Positions 1-8,524 of a stretch of DNA of 64,000 bases are shown here, piece after piece. Positions within the stretch are counted from its first letter, which is position 1. Each line of letters begins with the position of its first letter. The notes under the pieces were generated by a model. That model was not told where the DNA came from. It was given only the letters and a program-made list of their open reading frames with translations, and searched no databases. The stretch is from Sideroxydans lithotrophicus (GTDB lineage: Bacteria > Pseudomonadota > Gammaproteobacteria > Burkholderiales > Gallionellaceae), in NCBI GenBank assembly GCA_020723185.1, contig DYJI01000004.1, positions 124,001 through 188,000 on the forward strand. The letters are read 5' to 3'. The translations under genes were made by a program, and so were the position numbers.

Positions 1-31
1 GGTCTAGAGCACAAATCCCAATCTATTGATG
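1..31 (-). ncRNA. tracrRNA, 5' part with anti-repeat (runs off the left edge)
   Basis: Plus-strand bases 6-24 match 19 consecutive bases of the CRISPR repeat, and bases 1-4 match the next four repeat bases after a one-base insertion at 5. The match stops abruptly at 25, so this is not an array repeat. Read on the minus strand, the RNA would pair with the 5' half of the crRNA repeat, as a tracrRNA anti-repeat does in type II systems. The promoter at 38-67 predicts a start near 31, a few bases before the anti-repeat. The 3' hairpin tail and terminator lie outside the window. A degenerate repeat of another array is the main alternative. Confidence 0.72.
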
Positions 32-37
32 GAATGC

Positions 38-92: not shown

Positions 93-3000
93 ATGTTCGG
101 AAAAATGCGTTACCGCCTGTCACTTGATCTGGGATCGACTTCACTGGGCTGGGCTATGGTCAGACTCGACAAGGAAAATAGACCATGCGCAATCATCAAG
201 GCTGGAGTGCGCATTTTCTCAGATGGACGCAATCCAAAGGATGGCACCTCTCTCGCCGTAACCCGACGCGCCGCCCGCGCCATGCGTCGACGCCGTGACC
301 GTCTACTCAAGCGCAAGCAGCGCATGATGGGCGCACTGATCAAGCATGGCTTCTTCCCCTCGGATCAGGTTGAACGCAAGACACTGGAAACGTTAAATCC
401 CTATGCACTAAGAGCCAAGGGGCTGGACAAAGCACTAACTCCTGCAGAATTTGCCCGCGCCCTATTCCACATCAATCAGCGGCGCGGATTTAAAAGCAAT
501 CGCAAGACAGACAAGAAAGAAAACGATAGCGGAGCATTGAAATCCGCAATCAGGAAGCTACACGAGGCCCTACAAACAGAGAATTGCCGCACCGCAGGCG
601 AGTGGCTGAACAAACGACATGAAGCCAAGCAAACCGTTCGCGCCCGTTACCGCCAAGAAAAGTCATTGAAAGAGGATGGCAAAACCAAGATCGACAAGTA
701 TTACGACCTCTACATTGACCGCGCCATGATCGAGCACGAGTTCGATGCACTTTGGACAAAGCAGGCCGAACTAAATCCAGCCATCTTCACCGAACCGTCA
801 CGAGCCGAACTCAAAGATATATTGCTGCACCAGCGCCCACTTAAACCCGTCAAACCTGGGCGCTGCACCTTTCTGCCGGAAGAAGAACGCGCACCGCTGG
901 CTCTACCCAGCACCCAACGATTCCGCATGTATCAGGAGGTAAACAACCTGCGCATCCTGCGCGAGGGGTTAAAGGAAGAGCCTCTGACGCTGGAACAGCG
1001 CGATACGCTCACTGCCGCTCTGGAAGAAAATAGCAAATGCTCGTTCACCAAGATCAAGAAATTGCTTGGTGTAGGCGGCACGGTTCAATTCAACTTTGAA
1101 GACCCAAAACGTCAGGAACTCAAAGGCAACACCACCAGTGCCATCCTCGGCAAAAAGGATTTATTCGGCCCGGCCTGGTTCAAGTTCGACGAGGCCAAGC
1201 AAGACGACATCGTGATGAAACTGCTCACGGAGGAAAGCGAAGAAACCTTGGTTCGCTGGCTGCAACGAGAAACGGGACTTGATGAAAAAACCGCCGAGAC
1301 CATTGCCAACGTTGGCCTGCCGGAGGGCTATGGCAACCTGAGCGCCAAAGCGCTTGCACTCATCTTGCCGGAGCTACGCCGAGATGTTTTGACTTATGAC
1401 AAAGCCGTGCAGGCTGCTGGATTCGAGCATCACAGCAAACTAGGCTCCGATACCGAAATTCCCGGTGTCACGTTCAAGGCAGAGCGCATAGATTTGGACA
1501 CGGGAGAAATTAAAACATTCCATGTCCACCACAAACTGCCCTACTACGGTGAATACCTGCAACGGCATGTTGGCTTCGGCAGCGGCAAGCCAGAGGATAC
1601 TGCCGAAAAACGCTACGGCAAGATTGCAAACCCAACCGTTCACATCGGCCTGAATCAAGTTCGCTTGGTCGTGAATGCGCTCATCCAGCGCTATGGACAT
1701 CCCAGCGAAGTCATCGTGGAAGTTGCCCGTGAACTGAAACAAAACCAGGAACAGCGCAAGGAAGAAAACCAGCGCCAAGCCAAAAATCAAGATCGCAACA
1801 AGCGGCTACGCAGCGATATTGCCGGCATCCAGAAGATCGGCATTGAGCAGGTCAGCCGCGACGACATCGAAAAAATGATTTTGTGGGAAGAACTGAGCAA
1901 CGATGTAGCCGACCGCAAATGCCCCTATTCAGGCATACCGATCAGCGCCGCCATGCTGCTCAGCAATGAAGTCGAGATCGAACACATCCTCCCCTTCTCG
2001 CAGACCTTGGACGACAGCCTGAACAACAAGACCGTTTCCATGCGCCAGGCCAACCGCATCAAGGGCAACCGCACGCCTTGGGAAGCACGACAGGATTTCG
2101 AGGCTCAAGGCTGGAAGTTTGAGGACATTCTCGCCAGAGCGGGAAACATGAAGAAGGAAAAGCGCTACCGCTTCGCCGAGGATGGCTATCAGCGCTGGCT
2201 CAAGGAGGACAAAGGCTTCCTCGCTCGTGCACTGAACGACACCCGACATCTGAGCAAAGTAGCCCGCGAATACCTCACACTAATCTGCCCGCAAGCTACC
2301 CGCGTCATCCCCGGACGCATGACTGCCATGCTGCGTGGCAAGTTCGGGCTGAATGACGTGCTGGGGCTGAATGGCGAAAAAAACCGCAACGACCACCGCC
2401 ACCACGCCGTGGATGCCTGCGTAATCGCCGTTACCGACCAGGGCTTACTGCAACGCTTCGCAAAGGCCAGTGCCAGCGCACGCGAGAAACAATTGAACCG
2501 ACTGGTGGAAAGCATGCCGCTACCGTGGGACAGCTATCGAGAGCATGTGCAACGAGCGATTGAGAATATCTGGGTCAGTCACAAACCCGATCACAGCCAT
2601 GAGGGGGCAATGCACAACGACACGGCCTATGGGTTGCGCGGGGAGGGTCAGGTCAGTTTCCACAAAATGGTGGATGGCAAACGTGAACAAGTTCTGGAAA
2701 AACTAAAAGTCATTGAGATCAGTGACGCCCAGTCAACGGACCGTCACGGCATTCTGCCTACAGGCGAGCCTCGTCCCTATAAAGGATACAAGGGCGACAG
2801 CAATTACTGCATCGAGATTGTTCGCAATGAAAAGGGTAAATGGGAGGGCGAAGTTATTTCAACCTTCGATGCCTACCAACTGGTACGGCAGCATGGCATA
2901 GATCGGCTGCGGCATCCGTCATTAAGCGTAAGTGAAAAGCCCCTGTTGATGCGGTTAATCATCGATGATCTTGTAATAATTGAAGATGAATCCGGCAAGC

Positions 3001-3200
3001 ACACTTTAAGAGTTGCGAAGCTACAAGGCGATGGTCGAACATGGATGGTTGGCAATAACGAGGCGAACGTCCGAAAACGCGTTGATGCTGGTGAAATTAA
3101 ATATCTAGGCGCTCCCGCAAGCACCTTGCGAAAACTGCGTGCCCGCCGCGTAACAATCTCCCCCATCGGAGAGCTACACGATCCAGGGTTCAAGGAATAA
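93..3200 (+). CDS. cas9: CRISPR-associated endonuclease Cas9, type II-C
   Basis: RNA-guided DNA endonuclease of 1035 aa, the compact size usual for subtype II-C. Visible parts in order are RuvC-I (LSLDLGSTSLGWA, catalytic D12), an arginine-rich bridge helix at about 57-78, the recognition lobe, RuvC-II (EVIVEVAREL, E543), the HNH domain (EIEHILPFS with H631, then NNK and a KGNRTPWEA segment), RuvC-III (HHAVDACVIAV, H771 and D774), and a C-terminal PAM-interacting region. All catalytic residues are present, so the enzyme should be active. The start at 93 has AGGAG six bases upstream; Met5 is a weaker alternative. cas1 starts three bases after the stop. Confidence 0.97.
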   Translation: MFGKMRYRLSLDLGSTSLGWAMVRLDKENRPCAIIKAGVRIFSDGRNPKDGTSLAVTRRAARAMRRRRDRLLKRKQRMMGALIKHGFFPSDQVERKTLETLNPYALRAKGLDKALTPAEFARALFHINQRRGFKSNRKTDKKENDSGALKSAIRKLHEALQTENCRTAGEWLNKRHEAKQTVRARYRQEKSLKEDGKTKIDKYYDLYIDRAMIEHEFDALWTKQAELNPAIFTEPSRAELKDILLHQRPLKPVKPGRCTFLPEEERAPLALPSTQRFRMYQEVNNLRILREGLKEEPLTLEQRDTLTAALEENSKCSFTKIKKLLGVGGTVQFNFEDPKRQELKGNTTSAILGKKDLFGPAWFKFDEAKQDDIVMKLLTEESEETLVRWLQRETGLDEKTAETIANVGLPEGYGNLSAKALALILPELRRDVLTYDKAVQAAGFEHHSKLGSDTEIPGVTFKAERIDLDTGEIKTFHVHHKLPYYGEYLQRHVGFGSGKPEDTAEKRYGKIANPTVHIGLNQVRLVVNALIQRYGHPSEVIVEVARELKQNQEQRKEENQRQAKNQDRNKRLRSDIAGIQKIGIEQVSRDDIEKMILWEELSNDVADRKCPYSGIPISAAMLLSNEVEIEHILPFSQTLDDSLNNKTVSMRQANRIKGNRTPWEARQDFEAQGWKFEDILARAGNMKKEKRYRFAEDGYQRWLKEDKGFLARALNDTRHLSKVAREYLTLICPQATRVIPGRMTAMLRGKFGLNDVLGLNGEKNRNDHRHHAVDACVIAVTDQGLLQRFAKASASAREKQLNRLVESMPLPWDSYREHVQRAIENIWVSHKPDHSHEGAMHNDTAYGLRGEGQVSFHKMVDGKREQVLEKLKVIEISDAQSTDRHGILPTGEPRPYKGYKGDSNYCIEIVRNEKGKWEGEVISTFDAYQLVRQHGIDRLRHPSLSVSEKPLLMRLIIDDLVIIEDESGKHTLRVAKLQGDGRTWMVGNNEANVRKRVDAGEIKYLGAPASTLRKLRARRVTISPIGELHDPGFKE

Positions 3201-3203
3201 GCA

Positions 3204-4133
3204 ATGATAGGCCGCATCATCGAAGTAGCAGACGACAGGAGACATCTCTTCCTGTCACGCGGCTTCCTCGTGGTGCAGGATACGGAAGGCGAGCGGAAAG
3301 AACTGGGACAGATTCCGCTAGACGATATCGCTGCTGTCATCGCCAATGCACACGGCCTGAGCTACACCAACAACCTGCTGGTGGCGCTGGCCGAACGATG
3401 CGCCCCGTTCGTACTCTGCGCAGCCAACCATAATGCAGTAGGCATGGTGATGACCATAGACGGTAACTACCAGCAGGCCAAGCGCTTCGATGCCCAGCTT
3501 GCGGCCACACAACCCCTGATAAAACGTATGTGGGCGGATATCGTCAAATCCAAGCTCCAGCAACAGGCGGCTGCACTCGAAGCGGCGGGATCTCCGCACA
3601 TACCATTGCAAGCTTTAGTAAGGAAAGTACGCTCTGGCGACCCGGAGAATTTTGAAGCACAGGGCGCAAAGCGGTATTGGGGGCTTCTGTTCGGCGATGA
3701 CTTCCGCCGCGATCAGCAAGGGGGTGGCATCAACGCCATGCTTAACTATGGCTACACCGTATTGCGCGCCGCCACTGCACGGGCCGTCATAGCGGCGGGC
3801 CTGCATCCCACTCTCGGCCTGCATCACAGCAACGAAAGCAACGCCATGCGGCTGGTGGACGACCTAATGGAGCCCTTCCGCCCCATGATCGACCTTAAGG
3901 TGTGGCAACTCAACCAGCAAGGGGAATCAATGGTCACTCCCGAAAGCAAGCGCGCATTGGTGAGAACGCTATACGACGACATGCAAACCAGTGCTGGGGC
4001 AACGCCCGTCATTGTCTGCGCGCAAAAACTAGCCGTTTCACTGGCGCAGGTTTTCATGGGAGAAAAAGACAAGCTCGATCTGCCCTTGCCGGGGCTTCCG
4101 CTCAATTTGGCGGCATCATTTGAAGACGACTAA
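3204..4133 (+). CDS. cas1: CRISPR integrase Cas1
   Basis: Metal-dependent integrase subunit that, with Cas2, inserts new spacers. It has 309 aa, typical of type II Cas1. The metal-binding residues appear as E151 in ENFEAQGAKRYW, a histidine in GLHHSNESN (207/208), and an aspartate in RLVDDLMEPFRP (219/220). The gene follows cas9 by three bases and precedes cas2 by five, so the three are one operon. No csn2 or cas4 is present, which together with Cas9 size supports subtype II-C. Confidence 0.96.
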   Translation: MIGRIIEVADDRRHLFLSRGFLVVQDTEGERKELGQIPLDDIAAVIANAHGLSYTNNLLVALAERCAPFVLCAANHNAVGMVMTIDGNYQQAKRFDAQLAATQPLIKRMWADIVKSKLQQQAAALEAAGSPHIPLQALVRKVRSGDPENFEAQGAKRYWGLLFGDDFRRDQQGGGINAMLNYGYTVLRAATARAVIAAGLHPTLGLHHSNESNAMRLVDDLMEPFRPMIDLKVWQLNQQGESMVTPESKRALVRTLYDDMQTSAGATPVIVCAQKLAVSLAQVFMGEKDKLDLPLPGLPLNLAASFEDD

Positions 4134-4138
4134 CCGGA

Positions 4139-4465
4139 ATGCTTTCTGGATACCGCCTGATGTGGATCGTAGTGATGTTCGATTTACCCGTTGTCGAAAA
4201 AGCCGAACGCAAGGCGGCGACCGATTTCAGGAATGCCCTGCTGGACATGGGATTTGAGATGTCGCAGTTTTCAGTCTACATGCGCTTCTGCACCAGCCAG
4301 AGCCAGATCGACACCTATTGCAAACAGGTTGAAAAATCCTTGCCCGCCGGAGGGAAAGTGAACATACTGCAGTTCACCGACAAGCAATACGAGCGCATCA
4401 TCACTTTTCAAGGAAAAGCTAAACAGCCCGCCCTAAAATCGCCCGACCAGTTCTCGTTATTCTGA
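4139..4465 (+). CDS. cas2: CRISPR adaptation protein Cas2
   Basis: Small ferredoxin-fold protein (108 aa) that bridges two Cas1 dimers in the spacer-acquisition complex. The N-terminal strand with MWIVVMFDLPV and the following helix are typical of Cas2. It is the last gene of the cas operon; the terminator at 4499-4528 follows before the array. Confidence 0.95.
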   Translation: MLSGYRLMWIVVMFDLPVVEKAERKAATDFRNALLDMGFEMSQFSVYMRFCTSQSQIDTYCKQVEKSLPAGGKVNILQFTDKQYERIITFQGKAKQPALKSPDQFSLF

Positions 4466-4536: not shown

Positions 4537-6355
4537 AGTCTAGCAGATTGGGATTTGTGCTCTGACCGGAACTGCACGGCAGGGCGGATGCGCGATAACG
4601 GGAGTCTAGCAGATTGGGATTTGTGCTCTGACCGGAACAGTAGCTGCTGTGGATGACGGTGTCTCCGCAGTCTAGCAGATTGGGATTTGTGCTCTGACCG
4701 GAACTGTACCGAACCATCCGGGAGAAAGCCCATGAAGTCTAGCAGATTGGGATTTGTGCTCTGACCGGAACTGCTACCGGAGTATGCAATCCGTTTGCGT
4801 AAGTCTAGCAGATTGGGATTTGTGCTCTGACCGGAACGGAGTTGGCGGAGCCTTCAGCGTTGAGTATAGTCTAGCAGATTGGGATTTGTGCTCTGACCGG
4901 AACTTGGTCGCGGATCTCGGAGAAGAAGTCGACAGTCTAGCAGATTGGGATTTGTGCTCTGACCGGAACGGTCGGTAAACATCAGCACTTCCGCCGCTTA
5001 GTCTAGCAGATTGGGATTTGTGCTCTGACCGGAACCACATTGGACAGGTCACCCCACACATCGGAAGTCTAGCAGATTGGGATTTGTGCTCTGACCGGAA
5101 CCATATTTAGTGACAAGCGGCGCGGGCAGCTAGTCTAGCAGATTGGGATTTGTGCTCTGACCGGAACTGTCGCTGCGGGTACTGCCGTTGGCGGTGCAGT
5201 CTAGCAGATTGGGATTTGTGCTCTGACCGGAACGTCGGGTGGTAGCTATCGCGCATTACTGACAGTCTAGCAGATTGGGATTTGTGCTCTGACCGGAACG
5301 CACTACGTACCGCTGATGCGCGAGGACAAAGTCTAGCAGATTGGGATTTGTGCTCTGACCGGAACTCAGCGAGTCGCGCACTCGCTATCAAGTCAGTCTA
5401 GCAGATTGGGATTTGTGCTCTGACCGGAACCAGAAGGCTGAACAGGCAATTGCGGGAGCTAGTCTAGCAGATTGGGATTTGTGCTCTGACCGGAACAGTG
5501 CACCTCCTACTGTTGAACCTATCAGTAGTCTAGCAGATTGGGATTTGTGCTCTGACCGGAACTAACTTGTAATACGGACACTTACCAAATACAGTCTAGC
5601 AGATTGGGATTTGTGCTCTGACCGGAACACCAATATCACCACCCCACTGAAAGAATAAAGTCTAGCAGATTGGGATTTGTGCTCTGACCGGAACTCTTGT
5701 GTGTATTCCATGGTTTCTCCTTTAAGTCTAGCAGATTGGGATTTGTGCTCTGACCGGAACAGCAGTTTGTGCAGCACGCCGTCGTCGTAGAGTCTAGCAG
5801 ATTGGGATTTGTGCTCTGACCGGAACTGCATTCCCGAAGCATGCTGGCTATTCCGTAGTCTAGCAGATTGGGATTTGTGCTCTGACCGGAACCCATTTGC
5901 TCGCATCCAGTAATTCGTTAAGAGTCTAGCAGATTGGGATTTGTGCTCTGACCGGAACGTTCCTTCTTCGCCTACGCTCAACCTTCCTAGTCTAGCAGAT
6001 TGGGATTTGTGCTCTGACCGGAACCCGGCATAGTCTGCGGTGATGACGGTCTGCAAGTCTAGCAGATTGGGATTTGTGCTCTGACCGGAACTCAAACTTG
6101 CGGATCGTCGCTTCGGCTTGTAGTCTAGCAGATTGGGATTTGTGCTCTGACCGGAACGGATTCTGAGGAATGACGCTGCGCTGCACTAGTCTAGCAGATT
6201 GGGATTTGTGCTCTGACCGGAACGTCGATGAGTTGTTCGTTGTTCATGTGGCAAGTCTAGCAGATTGGGATTTGTGCTCTGACCGGAACTAAATTCAAAA
6301 GCTGAAAAAGCATGGTTAAAGTCTAGCAGATTGGGATTTGTGCTCTGACCGGAAC
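4537..6355 (-). CRISPR. Type II-C CRISPR array, 28 repeats and 27 spacers
   Basis: Twenty-eight copies of a 36-bp repeat (plus strand begins AGTCTAGCAGATTGGG and ends TCTGACCGGAAC) appear identical throughout. Spacers are 30 bp, except one of 29 (5366-5394) and two of 31 (4705-4735, 6025-6055). The minus strand is proposed as the crRNA strand: repeats then start with GTT, as usual for type II, and end in TGCTAGACT, an extended -10 element like that in Neisseria II-C repeats. The anti-repeat at 1-24 fits this orientation. All spacers differ and no end repeat is degenerate, so the array looks active, but the leader end cannot be told from repeat decay. Confidence 0.98.
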
Positions 6356-6426: not shown

Positions 6427-7803
6427 TCAGGCTAGACGCGGCTGCGCCGCTTGATCTTGATGCGTAGATTCGGACGAACCCGCACTCAATCGCCTGCCGT
6501 TGGCAGGCTCGCGGGCGTCGGCGGGTGGCGCCGACGGTCCGGCAACATCGTGCTTGATTCCGAGGTGTTCACACAGGCTCGCGCAGCGCCGCTTGAATTC
6601 ATCTGTGCCCGTCACTTCTACCGCCATCCCCTTCCCCGCTACCGCCAACAGTAATGCTGCAAGATGATCATCACTAATATCCTGCGGCCTGGGAATAGAT
6701 ACACCTCCGTCTGTTCTTCCGAACGCTATCGGCTGCCTGACGCCATCGACGAAGTAGGCCGGGTTTTCAAACTCGGGTCGGTGTATTTTGACAACAGGGC
6801 GTATCCCGCTAGCAAGACTATCAAAGTAGCTACGCAACTGATGCCCAGAATCCAGATTCTGAGCCGAGAGAACAGTCTTTTTTCCATGGCGCGTATCTCG
6901 CGTTCCATCTTCTTCGACAGATCGGTTTGTTGTTTTTCCAACTTCGTAGTCAGGCTCTTTTGGCTCGCCCGGTACTGTTCGACCAGCAAGCTCCGGTGCA
7001 TTCTCTGCTGCTTCTCTTTGAGTTCTTCTGCGAGAGACATGGACTCTCCTCCTTTCTTCAATCATTTCGACTTCCAATAAGCGATCGGGGATGACCCCTC
7101 GCTTCATCAAGCCAAGCGCCTTGCGCCCAATATGGACACCAGGAGCCTCGTCGATTCCTCGCGCTTCGTTACTGAGGTGCGACACAAGCGTGATCCCCTT
7201 GGGTGCCAGCTGAGCATTTAGCGCCGTAGCCCAACTGGCGCGGATTTCCTGCATGACTGCTTTTCGCTTTGTTCTTTGCCTGCGCTTGTAATCATTCAGT
7301 CCCTCACCAGCCAACTTGGGCAAGTCGTTGCATGTGAACCGCTCTGACTTCTTACACCCGCCCCGCTCTGGCATCTTGCTGTTGTGTCGCTTGAAGTAAC
7401 GCTCGCCTTCTCGTTCCAGTCCATCATCCAACCGTTCGCAAACCTGAATATGGACATGAGGGTTACCCAGCTTCCAGTGGAATCCAACCTCGACCATTTG
7501 ATGAGGGAACTCCTGCAATATCCACTCACGGGCGAGATCCATACTTTCCTCACGAGTGAATTCATTTGGCAGGGCGATTTCGAACTCTCGATACATGCTG
7601 CCGTTCTTGCGTTCATGCTTGTCAGCCATCGCCCAGAAATGGTCCCCATCCACTGCCCAACAAGGCAGATTAAATACGAGCGCATCCACAGGATGGTTCT
7701 CATCGAACTTCTCACGCGGATCGCGGCGGACATATCGGCCACGCTTCTGCGCGCCGCCCTCCTGCCGGGAGCCTAGCTTCACTGATAGGTGATATATCGC
7801 CAT
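6427..7803 (-). CDS. mobA: MOBQ-type conjugative relaxase (MobA/MobL family)
   Basis: DNA-nicking relaxase of 458 aa that would cut oriT and lead plasmid transfer. The N-terminus MAIYHLSVKLGSR is the family hallmark; the frame opens 20 codons earlier, but this ATG matches homologues such as RSF1010 MobA. Y24 in GRYVRRD is the likely nucleophile, and the metal-binding histidines are H116 and H118 in GNPHVHI. A stretch ERLDDGLEREGERYFKRHN also resembles RSF1010 MobA. The C-terminal part (EVTGTDEFKRR) resembles the LPD7 domain of other mobilization proteins; the RSF1010 primase fusion is absent. The ATG lacks a clear ribosome-binding site. A second gene is nested in another frame at 6726-7040. 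Confidence 0.9.
   Translation of the reverse strand: MAIYHLSVKLGSRQEGGAQKRGRYVRRDPREKFDENHPVDALVFNLPCWAVDGDHFWAMADKHERKNGSMYREFEIALPNEFTREESMDLAREWILQEFPHQMVEVGFHWKLGNPHVHIQVCERLDDGLEREGERYFKRHNSKMPERGGCKKSERFTCNDLPKLAGEGLNDYKRRQRTKRKAVMQEIRASWATALNAQLAPKGITLVSHLSNEARGIDEAPGVHIGRKALGLMKRGVIPDRLLEVEMIEERRRVHVSRRRTQREAAENAPELAGRTVPGEPKEPDYEVGKTTNRSVEEDGTRDTRHGKKTVLSAQNLDSGHQLRSYFDSLASGIRPVVKIHRPEFENPAYFVDGVRQPIAFGRTDGGVSIPRPQDISDDHLAALLLAVAGKGMAVEVTGTDEFKRRCASLCEHLGIKHDVAGPSAPPADAREPANGRRLSAGSSESTHQDQAAQPRLA
6726..7040 (-). CDS. mobB: MobB/MbeB-like membrane mobilization protein, nested in mobA
   Basis: A 104-aa protein read on the same strand but in a different frame from the relaxase, wholly inside its gene. 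It has a charged, predicted coiled-coil N-terminal half (LAEELKEKQQRM...KKMEREIRAMEKRL) followed by one membrane segment (IWILGISCVATLIVLLAGYALL). An AGGAGG at 7048-7053 sits seven bases before the chosen ATG, far better than the upstream Met. RSF1010 mobB and ColE1 mbeB are likewise nested in their relaxase genes and have similar layouts. The relaxase segment encoded here is a low-complexity linker, which could tolerate dual coding. Confidence 0.75.
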   Translation of the reverse strand: MSLAEELKEKQQRMHRSLLVEQYRASQKSLTTKLEKQQTDLSKKMEREIRAMEKRLFSRLRIWILGISCVATLIVLLAGYALLSKYTDPSLKTRPTSSMASGSR

Positions 7804-7842
7804 CAGGATGCCAAGGGGTCGAGGGGCACAGCCCCCGCGCAC

Positions 7843-7877
7843 GTTTCTCGGAACGAGAAACAACTAAGTGCGCTCCT
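7843..7877 (+). other. oriT: Origin of transfer (oriT), RSF1010/IncQ type
   Basis: An 8-bp inverted repeat, GTTTCTCG (7843-7850) and CGAGAAAC (7854-7861) around GAA, is followed after three bases by TAAGTGCGCTCCT (7865-7877). RSF1010 oriT has GTTTCTC-GAA-GAGAAAC, three bases, then TAAGTGCG/CCCT, with the nick after the G. By analogy the nick here lies between 7872 and 7873. It sits 40 bp upstream of a relaxase of the matching family. Confidence 0.88.
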
Positions 7878-7953
7878 CGCCGGAGGGGCGGCCTGCCGCC
7901 GGCCTGTAGCGAGGAGACATACACCAACCGGCAGAAATATTCCCAACCGCATT

Positions 7954-8145
7954 TCAGTGACTCCGAACCCAATCCTGGACCGCCGACCAGCGCCACAACC
8001 GCGCACGGCCTATCGAAAATCCTGGGGGGAATGAGCCTTCCTGAATGAGTGCGTAAAGCTTCGTTTTGCCAAGCCCAACAATCTTCAATACGTCATCGAG
8101 TCGAAGCAGGCGGTCAGTTTTTTCGCAGATATTCTGAGTTGTCAT
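7954..8145 (-). CDS. AlpA-family DNA-binding regulator
   Basis: Small helix-turn-helix protein (63 aa) of the AlpA/excisionase-like type. RLDDVLKIVGLGKTKLYALIQEGSFPPGFSIGRARLWRWSAVQDWV matches the winged-helix pattern, with the recognition region GKTKLYALI followed by the GRARLWRW wing. Relatives control integrase or excision genes of prophages and integrative elements. AAAGGA lies upstream of the ATG. It lies 150 bp from the relaxase start on the same strand, with oriT between them. Confidence 0.85.
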   Translation of the reverse strand: MTTQNICEKTDRLLRLDDVLKIVGLGKTKLYALIQEGSFPPGFSIGRARLWRWSAVQDWVRSH

Positions 8146-8270: not shown

Positions 8271-8524
8271 CACATCACGAAGACGAACTGCCATGAACCT
8301 CGACGAACATTGGCGGAAGTGTTTATAAAATTGAAAATCCTTGAGAGTCTCTGTCGACCACACAACCCATGTCGCGATCAAGCAAACTACCGGCAAAGGA
8401 AGCTGTATAATTGGTGCAGTTGCGGGGGTATGTATGGGGGTTCTCCATAAGTACCCCTGATGAAATGCTAGTTACTAAATAGGGTTGTTTGCCATTGTGT
8501 GTCCCGCCCCCGCACCAACACCAC

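Follow-up and report, generated by a model that had tools for sequence, protein, structure and literature searches.

A Type II-C CRISPR-Cas System as the Probable Cargo of a 10.5-kb Integrative Mobilizable Element at tRNA-Leu(CAA) in Sideroxydans lithotrophicus

CRISPR-Cas loci are often gained and lost, and to our knowledge vehicles that move whole Cas9 systems have seldom been seen. Several described elements resemble the locus reported here in part. CampyICE1, a Campylobacter ICE of 70-129 kb, is described in the available text of PMC8743540 as carrying a type II-C Cas9 only, without cas1-cas2, together with a tracrRNA and three short arrays that are directed mostly against plasmids. In Vibrio natriegens and Salinivibrio, CRISPR systems of type II-B lie in integrase-bearing islands at tRNA genes (PMC6360697, available text). 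In the ESKAPE pathogens, CRISPR-Cas systems are carried on ICEs and IMEs, and their spacers are preferentially against prophages (PMC9841420, available text). ICEs and islands with CRISPR have thus been described before, and the cases compared, as described in the accessible parts of these reports, are larger or are without cas1-cas2. In the open-licence literature that was searched, no IME of ≈10.5 kb was found to carry a complete type II-C system; further papers may describe one.

The locus from Sideroxydans lithotrophicus shares features with each of these systems. Like CampyICE1, it is a chromosomal, conjugation-related element with a type II-C Cas9, an array, and a tracrRNA; unlike CampyICE1, as far as the available text of PMC8743540 describes it, it measures only 10.5 kb, its system is complete, and its spacer matches are viral. 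It has a complete Cas9 system, an integrase, and a tRNA site in common with the Vibrio and Salinivibrio islands, but these are of subtype II-B, the V. natriegens region spans 30 kb with a restriction-modification system, and the word "relaxase" is absent from the accessible text of PMC6360697. ICEs and IMEs of ESKAPE pathogens likewise carry CRISPR-Cas, but with a bias to elements >100 kb and preferentially of subtype I-C (PMC9841420); the main text of that report, in its accessible form, uses neither "cas9" nor "type II", and it names subtype II-A for three excluded E. faecium strains and in connection with anti-CRISPRs. On its mobilization side, the locus resembles the RSF1010-type (MOBQ) modules found on small plasmids; in one of these, Polaromonas pH1NP1 (MOBQ in PLSDB), MobA/MobL also lies directly beside the same oriT. 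Unlike pH1NP1-type plasmids, it has AlpA in the place of the divergent TraD, and it integrates.

The window, meaning the whole stretch of 64,000 nucleotides that was analysed, corresponds to positions 124001-188000 on a 280,721-base contig, one of the 12 contigs of a 2.6-Mb genome. Unprefixed positions below refer to the window, and positions to its left are given in L002 coordinates, in which L002:18001 is window base 1.

L002:15970-16054, left of the window: tRNA-Leu(CAA)
L002:16037-16055, left of the window: attL
L002:16063-16073: inverted-repeat partner GCAAACAACCC, 7 nt inside attL
L002:16338-17603: full-length tyrosine integrase, 421 aa, with domains Arm-DNA-bind_3, Phage_int_M, and Phage_integrase
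1-34, minus strand: 5' part (anti-repeat) of the tracrRNA, which runs left to about L002:17944 and has a GC-rich terminator hairpin
93-3200, plus strand: cas9, type II-C, 1035 aa (TIGR01865, 652 bits; 70-87% identical to 9 aligned relatives)
3204-4133, plus strand: cas1 (TIGR03639, type II Cas1, 1.3e-69)
4139-4465, plus strand: cas2 (TIGR01573, 2.2e-17)
4537-6355, no strand assigned: CRISPR array of 28 identical 36-nt repeats and 27 spacers of 29-31 nt
6427-7803, minus strand: mobA, MOBQ-type relaxase, 458 aa (MobA/MobL family PF03389, E 1.3e-24; alignment with two plasmid MobA proteins)
6726-7040, minus strand: candidate mobB nested in mobA, 104 aa, with an ATG after a strong ribosome-binding site AAAGGAGGAGAGTCC and one hydrophobic stretch (judged by eye)
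7837-7873, plus strand: oriT, consisting of the inverted repeat GTTTCTCG-GAA-CGAGAAAC followed by TAAGTGCGC
7954-8145, minus strand: AlpA-like regulator (PF05930, E 3e-9)
8482-8492, no strand assigned: 11-bp inverted repeat GGGTTGTTTGC, 8 nt inside attR
8501-8518, no strand assigned: attR, a copy of the tRNA-Leu(CAA) 3' end with one G missing, and the right end of the element (supported by alignment of both junctions with the empty sites in four relatives)

From the tRNA-Leu(CAA) end to attR, the element measures 10,463 bp and contains the integrase, the tracrRNA, cas9-cas1-cas2, the array, MobA with the nested mobB frame, the MOBQ oriT, and AlpA. Its GC content is 52.7%, compared to 59.5-60.8% in the flanks. 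An initial annotation of the window had seen no integrase and had proposed that the block up to nudJ could be an integrated mobilizable element carrying the CRISPR system, with a decayed element next to the array as the alternative; it pointed leftward for an integrase and direct repeats and to related genomes for the exact ends. The statement about the integrase has to be corrected, because the full-length tyrosine integrase starts ≈280 bp past tRNA-Leu(CAA) and ends ≈400 bp left of the window edge. The proposal itself was borne out by this integrase, by the tRNA-Leu(CAA) site with attL, and by the repeat of the tRNA 3' end (18/19 nt) just ahead of nudJ. The tRNA-end match is by score alone within chance (31 versus a best score of 34 in 200 shuffles over 12 kb), and the assignment of the ends therefore rests on the junction alignment and on the 11-bp inverted repeats; when the two 40-nt ends were shuffled 20,000 times, an equal or longer pair appeared once.

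The junction alignment was made with four relatives (G057, G024, G084, and G060) that have the order queA-tRNA-Leu(CAA)-nudJ and a tRNA-nudJ gap of ≈48-53 bp; the gene names queA, rsgA, and aspS used in this report are our presumptive readings of the sequence. In all four, the empty site joins the left flank of the element to its right flank at the repeat, most clearly in G057 and G084. In the wider genus sample, nudJ was present in 32 of 34 genomes, and 30 of these were fetched as loci, 29 besides the element's own. The arrangement queA-tRNA-Leu(CAA)-nudJ without insert was found in 24 of these 29 loci, with a tRNA-nudJ gap of ≈48-54 bp in 7 of the 24 and never more than ≈730 bp; the other five loci end at contig ends (L055 and L075) or have no tRNA call there (L064, L067, and L071). 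None of the 24 sites held CRISPR alone or mob genes alone, an arrangement that the initial annotation had named as evidence of independent insertions. No second copy of the element was found in the genome, plasmid, and contig collections searched.

The CRISPR module has the type II-C gene set cas9-cas1-cas2 without csn2 or cas4. The tracrRNA anti-repeat forms a predicted duplex of -40.4 kcal/mol with the repeat, and the tracrRNA, on the minus strand upstream of cas9, is followed by a terminator-like hairpin. The array begins 71 bp past cas2 and stops 71 bp short of mobA, as noted at the outset, and its crRNA strand was taken as minus. Seven of the 27 spacers were scanned in viral contigs; the scan required identity over 21-26 specified bases of each spacer and would miss diverged targets. 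Spacers 19, 12, and 2 had been picked because of earlier matches in family genomes, where they match stretches with phage-type genes, and spacers 3, 9, 26, and 18 had no prior match. Four of the seven matched viral contigs, including one (spacer 3) of the four without a prior match. For spacer 19, two viral contigs matched at 30/30 and another two at 29/30; for spacer 3, six matched at 31/31 and one at 29/31; for spacer 12, two at 28/30 and one at 27/30; and for spacer 2, one at 25/30. Spacers 9, 26, and 18 had no match in the viral contigs, and the array had none in the phage collection; in plasmids, the array matched one Limnohabitans plasmid, which has a different array.

The sequence NNNNRC is on the 3' side of every match of at least 25/30 of spacers 19, 3, 12, and 2 (window 4537-6355; L289-L303). 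This motif, which was derived post hoc from no more than four spacers and with weaker matches excluded, is a candidate for the PAM of this Cas9. Type II-C enzymes with N4C and N4CC PAMs are described in the available text of PMC9433092, as is a preference of some for a purine at position 5. The matches of spacer 7 (22/30 in three loci and 25/30 in one) were set aside, as the ORFs beside two of these loci looked chromosomal by eye, and the 25/30 match is without the NNNNRC flank. Further spacer 19 matches, at 23-24/30, were likewise excluded.

Relatives of this Cas9 occur elsewhere in the family. Ten other family genomes among the 150 searched encode Cas9 at 66-87% identity (any Cas9 match occurred in 38 of 150, own genome included). 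In the loci of these ten and of two more distant relatives, several of which stop at contig ends, that of Sideroxydans sp. STC_76 just past cas2, there was no match to this integrase, MobA, mobB, or AlpA, and a whole-genome search found mobA absent from the ten closest Cas9 family genomes. In the species collection, among the best 80 of 155 cas9 loci, no DNA match fell wholly within the integrase or mob side of the element, and no MobA_MobL-type relaxase was detected by an HMM of 9 sequences, which covers this type only and recovers two plasmid controls. The sequence around cas9 extends ≥4 kb upstream and ≥6 kb downstream in only 36 of the 80 loci, and the integrase and relaxase counts are therefore lower bounds. 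In most of the other cas9 loci that match there, DNA similarity starts at about L002:17937-17955.

In STC_76, which belongs to the same genus as the host, the CRISPR module lies beside rsgA and the tRNA-Leu site is empty; contig C72 of G084 and JAQUAD010000044.1 give the same match. Identity between the element and STC_76 is 87% for Cas9, 94% for Cas1, and 98% for Cas2, compared to 84-93% for three core proteins, and in a Cas9 tree the element's Cas9 grouped with STC_76 and a Gallionella with support 100. Because the Cas identities are near those of the core proteins, and because of this grouping, the source of the CRISPR module was likely within the family. The module looks like a passenger, and not like part of the core, since this integrase or relaxase side was found in none of the 80 cas9 loci, as far as these were fetched, and the STC_76 copy is at rsgA.

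A stretch of ≈160-190 nt left of the tracrRNA terminator (L002:17753-17911) corresponds to L033:4677-4830 (minus strand) in the rsgA-linked locus of STC_76, at 78% identity. Among 158 family genomes, it was found only in the element's host and STC_76, besides a 25-nt match in G146, and a search of the left end of the element against Rfam gave no RNA family at threshold for it, only the tRNA scoring above its gathering score. We rejected the reading that this stretch flanks rsgA in the chromosome. The genus gave 29 other rsgA matches (the element's own genome among them), of which 28 do not extend past query base 532 and that of G093 runs 29 nt further; only the element matches beyond, at 571-724, which implies that the stretch is part of the CRISPR unit.

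These comparisons bear on a reading in which a chromosomal CRISPR locus simply neighbours what is left of a decayed mob module and the two do not belong to one element. It would account for the lack of matches to the integrase, mob genes, and AlpA in the stretches fetched around the 10 closest family cas9 relatives, for the negative search for mobA in their genomes, and for the position of the nearest cas9 relative at rsgA. But both parts lie within one pair of ends, the site is empty in relatives, and CRISPR alone was not seen at the site, and we consider this reading very improbable. Since no such int or mob genes were seen beside the Cas9 relatives elsewhere, some of whose loci are truncated at contig ends, the CRISPR and mob parts appear to have had separate histories and now form one att-bounded unit.

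Integrases of this kind, which we take to be P4-like, are common, with a match in 279 of 399 genomes of the order. Among the 29 best relatives with fetched loci, a tRNA gene was present in the stretch in 27, tRNA-Leu in 13, and tRNA-Leu(CAA) in 8. The AlpA-like regulator, as originally called, is likely an excisionase; its weak PADLOC matches to defence-associated models were read as shared domains. Such integrases and AlpA also occur in phage satellites, and the element might accordingly be taken for a satellite-like island that is transferred in phage particles, with the relaxase as a side piece. The Cas9 islands of Hylemonella and Jezberella described below fit that picture, in that they encode VapE-like or D5-type proteins and the search for MobA_MobL-type relaxases gave none there. 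Here, however, the element has both a relaxase and a matching oriT, and the identified genes, which include no primase, capsid, or packaging gene, take up nearly all the space between the ends; a satellite origin is highly unlikely.

The assignment of a MOBQ-type relaxase at 6427-7803 held up. MobA can be aligned to MobA from two plasmids, and the alignment takes in the putative catalytic stretches NPHVHI...ER and YFKR..PERGGCKK; it also matches the NF041496 MobQ model at 1.7e-13, under the model cut-off. It is a remote member, with best genome matches of 42-44% over the N-terminal third or half; coverage of at least 80% in one place was found in none of 3,046 matching plasmid records, and single-protein scans of the genome contig and viral contig collections gave no relatives. 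MobA residues 1-231 also match the PADLOC DpdH model (1.6e-31), which we read as a shared domain, and defence-gene scans may thus mislabel such relaxases. For the nested mobB, the frame, its ATG, and its ribosome-binding site stand, and relatives were found neither in plasmids nor above threshold in Pfam; the assignment is plausible, not proven.

The oriT that had been proposed beside mobA has 35 nt in common with the Deefgea plasmid unnamed2 and Polaromonas pH1NP1, and in both plasmids it lies directly upstream of the MobA/MobL gene, beside divergent TraD. Its nic side is identical to both, and two inserted nucleotides give it one stem pair more than in either plasmid. The plasmid search returned six matches, of which these two were clear (7e-5) and the other four had values of 0.04-0.4. 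The 9-mer TAAGTGCGC alone is at chance level (1 in the window versus 0.61 expected), and the oriT call therefore rests on the long match in place beside mobA; its type was judged against MOBQ-like plasmids, with no RSF1010 sequence in the comparison. A MobC or TraD gene divergent from mobA was not found, as the two plus-strand ORFs of at least 60 aa between mobA and attR had no Pfam match; in a control, the two plasmid TraD proteins matched PF06412. Likewise, no conjugation pore gene was among the genes identified between the ends by scanning the larger ORFs. The VirB4 family (PF03135) had no match in the host's own genome, so that any helper would probably need to be supplied by another cell or plasmid from outside this genome.

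Taken together, the integrase at the insertion site, the attL and attR sites with empty sites in relatives, and the element's own relaxase and oriT argue that this is very probably an IME at tRNA-Leu(CAA), with a complete type II-C CRISPR-Cas system as cargo. At the level of sequence, this interpretation is supported also by the cas gene set, the tracrRNA pairing, the identical repeats, and the virus-matching spacers. In the proposed mechanism, the element probably acquired its CRISPR module from within the family. AlpA would help the integrase to excise the element, and the excised circle would be nicked at oriT by MobA, would move via a type IV secretion system that a helper plasmid provides, and would enter a tRNA-Leu gene of a recipient. 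The recipient would gain Cas9 plus the spacer memory of the donor, to which Cas1-Cas2 could add spacers.

Present mobility of the element is slightly favoured. Several points count against our interpretation: attR is without one G, MobC and TraD were not found, although both plasmid relatives have TraD, VirB4 had no match in the genome, a single copy was found in the searches made, these searches gave no close relative of mobA, the array was without a match among phages and three of the seven scanned spacers without one among viral contigs, and the assembly is in 12 contigs. The first four would suit a fossil that entered as an IME and is now fixed, immobile, and retained only for the benefit of CRISPR to the host. 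This alternative, which denies only the inferred, mobile half of our interpretation, is a real though lesser possibility; against it, the integrase, MobA, AlpA, and cas frames are all open and full length, the nic side of oriT matches both plasmids exactly, and all 28 repeats are identical. Under the mobile interpretation, Cas9 immunity may travel ready-made between bacteria. This vehicle has been drawn base by base, is small enough for laboratory study, and carries spacers with known viral matches, so that transfer of acquired immunity between cells is directly testable.

A few related Cas9 systems are also in small islands. Among the best 80 cas9 loci, another integrase was nearby in 3 (Hylemonella, Jezberella, and Methylopumilus), which is a lower bound. 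We rejected a single origin of the four integrase-linked Cas9s: a quick tree of 81 needs four changes, forced by starred branches. Shuffled labels gave the same result (mean 3.9 changes), and the four are thus simply scattered, a hint that Cas9 systems have taken this route more than once. We tentatively propose that the element is a minimal 10.5-kb conjugatively mobilizable vehicle that would give a recipient Cas9, Cas1-Cas2, and virus memory in one step via MOBQ mobilization, and that betaproteobacterial type II-C systems have repeatedly and independently come aboard such small tRNA-borne islands; this is quite possible, if somewhat short of an even chance, and such repeated boarding would help explain the patchy spread of type II-C systems.

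The island in the Hylemonella gracilis MAG (L151:6826-21498) has a type II-C Cas9. Its tRNA-Ser(TGA) 3' end is repeated, as a 26-nt near-repeat, at 6826-6851 beyond cas9, by the end of a putative aspS, with a score of 37 versus a best of 27 in 30 shuffles; a tyrosine integrase and a protein resembling VapE are encoded between the tRNA and this repeat. The Jezberella montanilacus locus (L178:3592-19418) contains an integrase, AlpA, a D5-type protein, Cas9, cas1/cas2-like frames, and an array. It is a probable island at tRNA-Ser(CGA), as a 14-nt repeat of this tRNA lies just outside the integrase and encloses AlpA, the D5-type protein, and the cas genes; the repeat score (28 versus 27 in shuffles) is marginal alone. 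The Methylopumilus MAG contig (L220:482-7380) has, in order, a tyrosine integrase, an NrS-1-polymerase/AAA-type gene, cas9, and an array-like frame, and no cas1 or cas2 ORF of at least 80 aa lies between cas9 and the array-like frame. Finally, a 149-kb Limnohabitans plasmid (NZ_AP027057.1:47137-50178) carries a related Cas9 (68%) together with an array-like match, and is another vehicle for this Cas9 group.
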